Below, in pieces: positions 14,052-14,393 of a stretch of 15,337 bases of DNA (positions are counted from its first letter, which is position 1; every line of letters starts with the position of its first letter). Both the position numbers and the translations under genes were made by a program. The stretch spans positions 1-15,337 of the forward strand of contig JAFZLP010000129.1 in assembly GCA_017551405.1 (NCBI GenBank). Direction: 5' to 3'. Source of the stretch: Bacteroidales bacterium. Lineage in GTDB: Bacteria; Bacteroidota; Bacteroidia; Bacteroidales; UBA932. Under the pieces are notes generated by a model that saw only the letters and a list, made by a program, of their open reading frames with translations, had not been told where the DNA came from and searched no databases.

Positions 14052-14136
14052 GGAAGGTTGGCCGAGTGGTCTATGGCGGCAGTCTTGAAAACTGTTGTGC
14101 GGCAACGCACCGGGGGTTCGAATCCCTCACCTTCCG
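14052..14136 (+). tRNA. tRNA-Ser (anticodon TGA)
   Basis: An 85-base class II tRNA. The acceptor arm GGAAGGT (14052-14058) pairs with ACCTTCC (14129-14135), with discriminator G at 14136. The D-arm includes GGCCGAGTGGTC. The anticodon loop CTTGAAA at 14084-14090 carries TGA at 14086-14088. The long variable arm GTGCG/CGCAC (14097-14110) is diagnostic for serine. The T-arm has stem GGGGG/CCCTC and loop TTCGAAT. The CCA end is not encoded. It reads UCA and related UCN codons. A strong promoter precedes it and dense hairpins follow 6 bases later. Confidence 0.97.
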
Positions 14137-14142
14137 CGCTAT

Positions 14143-14275
14143 GCAATGCAATAGCAGGTGCCGCACAAGAGTGCGGCACTTTCTGTTAGAGCATGTCTGC
14201 TCTCGAAAGCTAGCTTTCGGTGACAGACATGCTCTAACGGGAAGCAACCTTCGGTTGCACGTGCTGTTGCATTGC
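14143..14275 (+). repeat. Cloverleaf-like composite inverted repeat (possible structured RNA or small non-coding element)
   Basis: A 14-base outer arm, GCAATGCAATAGCA (14143-14156), pairs with TGCTGTTGCATTGC (14262-14275) with one U-G wobble. Inside lie three separate hairpins. Hairpin 1 is GTGCCGCAC/GTGCGGCAC at 14158-14179 (9 bp). Hairpin 2 has a 15-bp perfect stem (14185-14199 with 14224-14238) around a 16-base palindrome CGAAAGCTAGCTTTCG (14204-14219). Hairpin 3 is GCAACC/GGTTGC at 14244-14258. Together they form a four-way junction. The single imperfect pair is U-G on the plus strand but A-C on the minus strand, which favours a plus-strand RNA. No protein is encoded that I would believe. 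The strand and the nature of the element are inferences. Confidence 0.6.
14158..14184 (+). terminator. Possible terminator after tRNA-Ser
   Basis: A 9-bp perfect G/C-rich hairpin (14158-14166 with 14171-14179, loop AAGA) is followed by TTTCT. It is well placed to end the tRNA transcript 22 bases past its 3' end. The T-run is short, and the hairpin is also the first arm of the larger fold, so termination may be partial. Confidence 0.5.
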
Positions 14276-14279
14276 TCTC

Positions 14280-14336
14280 GGATGGAGAGGGAAATGCGAA
14301 GTCGCCTCGCGACTGAGCAAATCCCCCATCCCATCC
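14280..14336 (+). repeat. Second multi-part inverted repeat
   Basis: GGATGG (14280-14285) pairs with CCATCC (14331-14336). Inside, GGGA/TCCC (14289-14292 with 14322-14325) and TGC/GCA (14295-14297 with 14317-14319) flank a two-base A-A internal loop. A tip hairpin, AGTCGC/GCGACT at 14300-14314, is separated by possible tandem G-A pairs (14298-14299 with 14315-14316). Tandem G-A and A-A mismatches are RNA-like on the plus strand. It begins 5 bases after the cloverleaf-like element and may belong to it. Confidence 0.45.
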
Positions 14337-14345
14337 ACATAAAAA

Positions 14346-14393
14346 CGCAAAAACGTGGCCGGGAGGCATTTCAAACCCTTCCCGTCCACGTTT
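14346..14393 (-). terminator. Rho-independent terminator of the GlsB-like gene
   Basis: Read on the minus strand, AAACGTGG (14393-14386) pairs with CCACGTTT (14358-14351). An inner CGGGAAGG/CCTCCCG stem carries a one-base bulge. The hairpin is followed by a T-rich run containing GCGTTTTTA. It starts 22 bases after the stop codon at 14416. Confidence 0.75.

Follow-up and report, generated by a model that had tools for sequence, protein, structure and literature searches.

A folded element after tRNA genes of Bacteroidota, probably a gene-less mobile element

A cloverleaf of 133 bases, nearly fully paired, lies at positions 14143–14275 of the window (the whole 15,337-nucleotide stretch of a Bacteroidales contig analysed here), directly 3′ of the gene for tRNA-Ser(TGA). 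It probably forms the body of a non-autonomous mobile element, about 200 bp long and without genes, whose insertion site is the 3′ end of a tRNA gene. Its relatives are found at tRNA 3′ ends, some of them between pairs of tRNA tails; subfamilies are swapped at orthologous tRNAs, some copies stand in tandem, and the fold is kept. Therefore, a gene-less integrative mobile element is the most likely explanation.

Structure of the element

Folded as RNA, the cloverleaf reaches −88 kcal/mol, against a mean of −42.1 (sd 3.7) for 200 dinucleotide shuffles (z −12.5); no shuffle (0/200) is as stable. The original prediction, made from the DNA letters, had described an outer stem of 14 bp (P1) with a single T-G wobble, three hairpins of 9, 15 and 6 bp, and a 16-base palindrome in the loop of the 15-bp stem, and all of these are where it placed them (Table 1). 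The 15-bp part of P3 (14185–14199/14224–14238) encloses the palindrome, and the predicted stem is longer. The further claim that this is more structure than a terminator needs agrees with the z score, with the conservation of P1 and the P3 tip, and with the presence of P5 in relatives; an ordinary terminator is rejected on these grounds.

The full feature seems to be larger than 133 bases, comparison with relatives suggesting a unit that runs from inside the tRNA gene (14121) through P5 to a second, decayed tRNA tail. The possible inverted copy of the tail is not significant alone, 52 of 500 shuffles being equally good. The hairpin beyond the second tail may, by analogy with two relatives, be the tRNA gene's original terminator, displaced by the insertion. 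The carrier genome (1.24 Mb, 205 contigs, 90% complete) holds a single copy of the element by DNA search (BLAST, matching both strands), and also two diverged structural relatives, at tRNA-Ser(CGA) and tRNA-Gly(GCC).

Table 1. Coordinates of the element, its parts and its flanks in the window
Feature	Position	Strand	Basis
tRNA-Ser (TGA), gene that hosts the element	14052..14137	+	ARAGORN; Rfam RF00005, 57 bits
Tail 1: 3′ strand of tRNA T-stem/acceptor; left copy of flanking direct repeat	14121..14137	+	
P1, 5′ arm of outer stem	14143..14156	+	fold
P2 hairpin (9 bp), then T-rich stretch; resembles a terminator when read on the tRNA strand	14158..14179	+	fold
P3, long hairpin	14182..14242	+	fold, relatives, covariation
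P3 tip, 16-base palindrome CGAAAGCTAGCTTTCG (commonest form in relatives GAAAGCTWGCTTTC)	14204..14219	+	
P4 hairpin (6 bp)	14244..14258	+	fold
P1, 3′ arm of outer stem	14262..14275	+	fold
Possible degenerate inverted copy of tRNA tail, 11/13 bases	14279..14292	+	
P5 hairpin with internal loop, extending into AATCCC	14287..14327	+	fold; P5 of relatives
Tail 2: decayed right copy of tRNA tail, 9/12 first bases, 199 bp from tail 1	14320..14336	+	
Hairpin; may be the original tRNA terminator	14351..14393	.	fold; analogy with L291, L207

Relatives at tRNA 3′ ends

A search of relatives had been set beforehand as a test of the prediction, and relatives do exist in the genomes of the family. By DNA similarity, 299 family genomes yielded the window's own copy and one relative only, which lies directly after a tRNA-Ser(GCT) gene and has compensated stems and an identical 16-base palindrome. 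The palindrome occurs at 14 places in 12 of 398 family genomes (reversed control, 0 among the matches listed); 12 of the places are 3′ of a tRNA gene, and the remaining two are partial copies in one genome (G014). Of 249 genomes from the window's family, at least 61 (in 10 of 25 genera) contain the structure according to a covariance model built from four copies, a lower bound because stricter filters were applied and 12 candidates scored in each genome; 168 genomes with no match are left out of the list. Examined here are 73 of the 88 distinct places, the other 15 being weaker ones. Many assemblies are MAGs, and one (G234) is listed with 8% contamination.

In 65 of the 73 places the element lies on the 3′ side of a tRNA gene and starts at −9 to +14 nt relative to the end of that gene; the tRNAs are 40 Ser, 21 Arg, 2 Gly, 1 Met and 1 His. 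Of the remaining eight, one (L090) has a tRNA cut by the contig end, and the other seven begin with an exact 14/14 tRNA 3′ end, compared with control means of 9.0–10.0 (30 windows per locus; the best control match is 11 at three loci and 14 at the other four, there perhaps from a random window on the same boundary). A tail displaced in this way is expected at the distal end of an integrated element.

Genome contigs were also scanned for the P3-tip motif within a CGTC...GTAA frame, an asymmetric loop that 12 of the 65 family copies have and the window copy lacks. At least 120 stretches were found, among these 111 from Bacteroidota and 9 from Lachnospirales; the Bacteroidota among the stretches listed are Flavobacteriales, Bacteroidales, Chitinophagales and others. 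Among 121 matches listed, 93 have a tRNA gene 20–160 nt upstream on the same strand, 1 has it on the other strand, and 27 have none called. Of these 27, 14 carry a piece of a tRNA 3′ end matching at 12/14 or more, compared with 1 of 27 controls. When proteins of non-tRNA loci were scanned (ten, from nine loci), full tyrosine recombinases were found in L189, L184 and L188, each beside a tRNA tail fragment (14/14, 13/14 and 11/14, respectively); a protein of L248 matched a tyrosine recombinase below the cut-off, and the remaining proteins belong to other families or to none. In eight Lachnospiraceae stretches (L179, L192, L199, L205, L250, L256, L258, L271) the tip motif lies in hairpin clusters, some of them between tRNA genes; by eye, L199 and L250 contain tandem repeats of the outer-stem arm. 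Simpler elements with a single hairpin, maybe a minimal form, were seen by eye after tRNA-Ser genes (L295, L298, L301, L317, L321, L357), and several of these have a CTTG-like tip and are followed by P5-like hairpins.

The far ends of the elements resemble the tail of their own tRNA. In the 53 usable elements of the 65, the right end matches the own tail at 8.58 of 12 bases and permuted tRNAs at 7.94, with 0 of 2000 permutations as good. The 17-base tail recurs at the far end with at least 14/17 in 8 of 83 motif loci (1.0 expected with swapped tRNAs); it reaches at least 16/17 in seven, which enclose a unit of 169–278 bp, and is exact in three. The other 75 have no well-kept right tail and that of the window is decayed, which counts against the mobile-element reading. 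A further point against that reading is that elements of the same subfamily at different tRNA genes end with the tail of their own tRNA, which a target-site duplication explains more easily than a carried att core. The original prediction took a single copy with no flanking duplication as a sign against a mobile repeat; the copy is indeed single in its own genome by DNA similarity, yet related copies do have the flanking duplication.

For example, a cousin of the window element in a genome of the same genus (L291 in G333; identity 79% over 47 bases and 73% over 62) carries two exact tails at a distance of 196 bp, with a terminator-like hairpin behind them, and L207 has a 16/17 tail followed by such a hairpin (both hairpins by eye). 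Exact tails are also present in L236 and L215. Elements may be stacked: two different ones stand in a row in L194, each closed by a tail copy, and near-identical copies are in tandem in L204. In L281, three decayed tail-like units with a spacing of about 21 bp were seen by eye between the element and a kept second tRNA-Arg tail. The inverted tail copy also favours the own tRNA across the set (8.06 vs 7.51 of 12 for permuted tRNAs, 0/2000) but is weak copy by copy, with at most 3/500 shuffles as good in 2 of 12, and was rejected as a general feature.

The content of the site changes between genomes. In genus g15, four Ser-TGA loci (L293, L294, L296, L297) have upstream flanks that are 79–87% identical and carry different subfamilies, those of L293 and L297 being related; L293 and L294 also have a common downstream gene at 80%. 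L299 has an element and L292 has none, with a downstream gene common at 80% and unmatched upstream flanks. L301 and L304/L306 have both flanks in common, with a simple hairpin or a truncated element between them, and L311 and L320 are 98.7% identical upstream, differ after the tRNA and have no downstream match. Two tRNA loci of one genome (G091) carry elements that are 86% identical. No clean empty site was found in the close relatives examined, which also counts against mobility. L333, a 96% sibling of L291, has other DNA at the site with a DUF1016 fragment (Pfam); an integrase end suspected there by eye was not borne out by Pfam, which detected no integrase in that DNA. The ComEC gene is present in 79 of 81 genus genomes; in the 30 loci read, no tRNA-Ser-TGA stands beside it except in the window's own genome. 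By eye, truncated copies (L304, L306, L311, L317, L321, L013) run into an inverted tRNA tail at the P3 tip or close to it, which would suit a breakage or recombination point in the P3 hairpin.

It is unlikely, given the flanks and the fold, that these structures are left ends or scars of larger integrative elements, that is, att ends of ICEs or islands or decayed cis-mobilizable remnants, and not independent elements. Tyrosine-recombinase elements do use tRNA tails, tandem truncated right halves occur, and in L187 and L270 a cloverleaf (by eye in L187) is followed by 1–2 kb of other DNA and another tail. Against this, the bare 169–278 bp unit recurs between tails of at least 16/17, one outer stem with three hairpins is common to 62 of the 65 tRNA-end copies, and an exact P5 pattern in seven genomes matched at cloverleaf loci only (9/9, one of them a partial copy). 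The pattern gave 0 matches in G000 and G015, whose P5 differs. The two segments between tRNA tails (L187:663-2023 and L270:499-2889) differ in content: that of L270 encodes an AAA/DUF4143 ATPase and a DUF3791 protein, and the ORFs of L187 match no Pfam family.

Conservation of the fold and its strand

The 54 model pairs are 92.8% canonical over 73 tRNA-strand rows, compared with 57.1% (maximum 58.7%) in 200 shuffles, and 53 of the 54 have changes on both sides. The alignment excludes L132, where the model matched the other strand only, and L076, a duplicate of the window; it was fitted to the model, and these values are thus biased toward the model pairing. The covariance-model check proposed with the prediction showed changes in the stems to be compensatory, not stem-breaking. 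The P3 tip is mostly GAAAGCTWGCTTTC in relatives. Its centre is oriented (n = 62: CTTG 26, CTAG 22, CTCG 8, CAAG 1, CGAG 1, CCAG 1, others 3), and it stands between a T-run on the left (112 of 129 sequences) and an A-run on the right (95 of 129; at least 6 in 8).

A G.T pair is a wobble only in the fold of the tRNA strand and an A.C pair only in that of the opposite strand. In the helices, G.T exceeds A.C by 192:81 in 166 sequences and by 183:100 in 129 less redundant ones (84:45 in the model-collected and 108:36 in the motif-collected set); the sequences share kinship, so that p-values are too small. With strict flanks the ratios are 36:3 for P2, 29:8 for P3, 12:3 for P4 and 7:11 for P1. Under a looser rule P4 leans the other way (22:36) and P1 is even (33:35). 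Hence, P2 and P3 appear from these counts to be under selection on the tRNA strand. The strand lean of P4 depends on the filter, and P1, the would-be terminal inverted repeat, has no strand bias; both count against a mobile element. Transcription-linked C-to-T mutation is a possible source of the bias. The bias of P2 and P3 speaks against a cruciform with no strand preference, though such mutation could mimic that bias.

Selection of P2 and P3 on the tRNA strand, covariation, and the position and orientation after tRNA genes would all suit a structured RNA that arises when transcription runs on past the tRNA gene, with a role in tRNA processing or regulation and with tail repeats that stem from other insertions. 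We regard such an RNA as quite improbable, since P2 and the T-run (at least 6 T in 8 in 112/129) should end transcription before P3, orthologous tRNAs lack the element or carry different subfamilies, and only 5 of the 59 tRNA flanks surveyed in two genomes carry it (by eye; further copies in G015). As for the RNA proposed in the original prediction, selection of the fold on the tRNA strand is compatible both with an RNA and with single-stranded DNA.

A strand-specific hairpin with an oriented tip, and the asymmetric CGTC...GTAA loop of 12 of 65 copies (the window not among them), would also suit a REP-like element or one derived from IS200/IS605, in which a Y1 HUH transposase recognises P3 and moves the DNA in single-stranded form. 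This origin is very improbable: to our knowledge, neither a 17-base flanking duplication nor a single target class is expected for IS200/IS605, and the exact P5 pattern is not scattered through the genome. P5 as a genome-wide REP is rejected, all nine matches of that pattern being at cloverleaf loci.

Other identities were set aside. In Rfam 15 the window matches only tRNA at the gathering score, weaker matches being below family cut-offs. Eight non-tRNA loci gave one cut tRNA only, and 19 tip-motif loci gave tRNA, rRNA and, in L235, a Flavo-1 match 2 kb from the element. No blastn match at E 1e-5 was found in phage or plasmid records. In the viral collection the tip motif occurs in 1 stretch and the 16-base palindrome in one (L003:5664-5679); the latter has no tRNA nearby, looks intein-coding by eye, and is probably due to chance.

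Possible mechanism and known systems

Based on these comparisons, a gene-less mobile element would insert by site-specific exchange within the T-arm/acceptor tail, and as the exchange lies inside the tail the tRNA would stay whole with a complete 3′ end. With the old terminator displaced by about 200 bp, P2 would take over termination, and a second tail would be left at the far end and then decay. Less certainly, the recombinase would act in trans and would most likely be of the tyrosine type, like those carried by integrative elements with the same tRNA tails as their sites. Given the tRNA-strand bias of P2 and P3, a factor in trans may recognise that strand in its folded, single-stranded form, perhaps through the P3 tip and P5; integron integrases recognise folded single-stranded attC sites. 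Mobility is supported by several lines; the enzyme and the folded-strand step are a proposal. No mobilising enzyme was identified in this analysis, and tyrosine recombinases using the same tails are the first candidates.

Like the element, MITE- and REP-type repeats are short, non-coding, palindromic and presumably moved in trans. The element differs in having one target class, flanking repeats made of tRNA tails and few copies per genome. As possible terminal inverted repeats, its P1 arms are inverted and covary but differ between copies, and multiple similar copies are absent from the carrier genome, where one BLAST copy and two diverged structural relatives are found. Thus, the mobile repeat of the original prediction is supported in substance, and its identity as a classical MITE is not. 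Rickettsia palindromic elements are likewise short non-coding repeats. Tycheposons are found at tRNA genes with tyrosine recombinases; they share the site with the element but are larger gene-bearing islands, whereas the element is small and gene-less.

Cis-mobilizable elements (CIMEs) are described, in the part of the source available, as flanked by attL and attR, devoid of integration genes, located at tRNA 3′ ends and subject to tandem accretion (PMC5704250). The element resembles them in its att-like flanking repeats, the absence of integration genes, the tRNA 3′ end and tandem stacking. Two tails, as putative attL and attR, are present in fresh relatives and decayed in the window. CIMEs are decayed gene-bearing elements, whereas here a short folded unit recurs, mostly gene-less in the copies examined; the recurrent bare unit argues against gene loss from an ICE or IME, and the other DNA in L187 and L270 argues for it. 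Integron cassettes and their attC sites, as characterised in the available part of another account, are variable in sequence, conserved in structure, strand-specific and stackable, and may end transcription (PMC8876359). The element shares variable sequence, conserved fold, possible strand-specific reading, stackability and a possible terminator; it targets a tRNA gene and has no cargo in most of the copies examined. As a sign of attC-like recognition of a folded strand, the P3 bias is suggestive only. The element works like a CIME and perhaps like integron cassettes, and is assigned to neither.

The PINSR repeat of Prevotella intermedia, as far as the available part of its description goes, is 188 bp long with 177–184 intergenic copies per genome and reportedly no terminal inverted repeats (PMC4755523). 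It is a short non-coding repeat of the same phylum, but has a high copy number and no tie to tRNA genes stated in that part (PMC4755523); by this description it was set aside as a different repeat. No published description of the element was found in Rfam or in the literature searched, many subscription papers being outside its reach, and the family is apparently undescribed.

A bolder extension, which we hold to be unlikely, is that Bacteroidota tRNA genes act as integron-like platforms, where a recombinase that reads the tRNA strand in folded, single-stranded form captures small, mostly gene-less cassettes, sometimes with genes, in tandem at the tRNA tail. If the element is a gene-less mobile element, it would represent a kind of structured mobile DNA that is widespread at the tRNA genes of Bacteroidota and apparently undescribed. 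Some of the variable sequence, rich in hairpins, that follows these genes would then be accounted for, and the known integrative elements would gain a gene-less member. Strand-specific recombination at folded sites could also be put to the test here, outside integrons.
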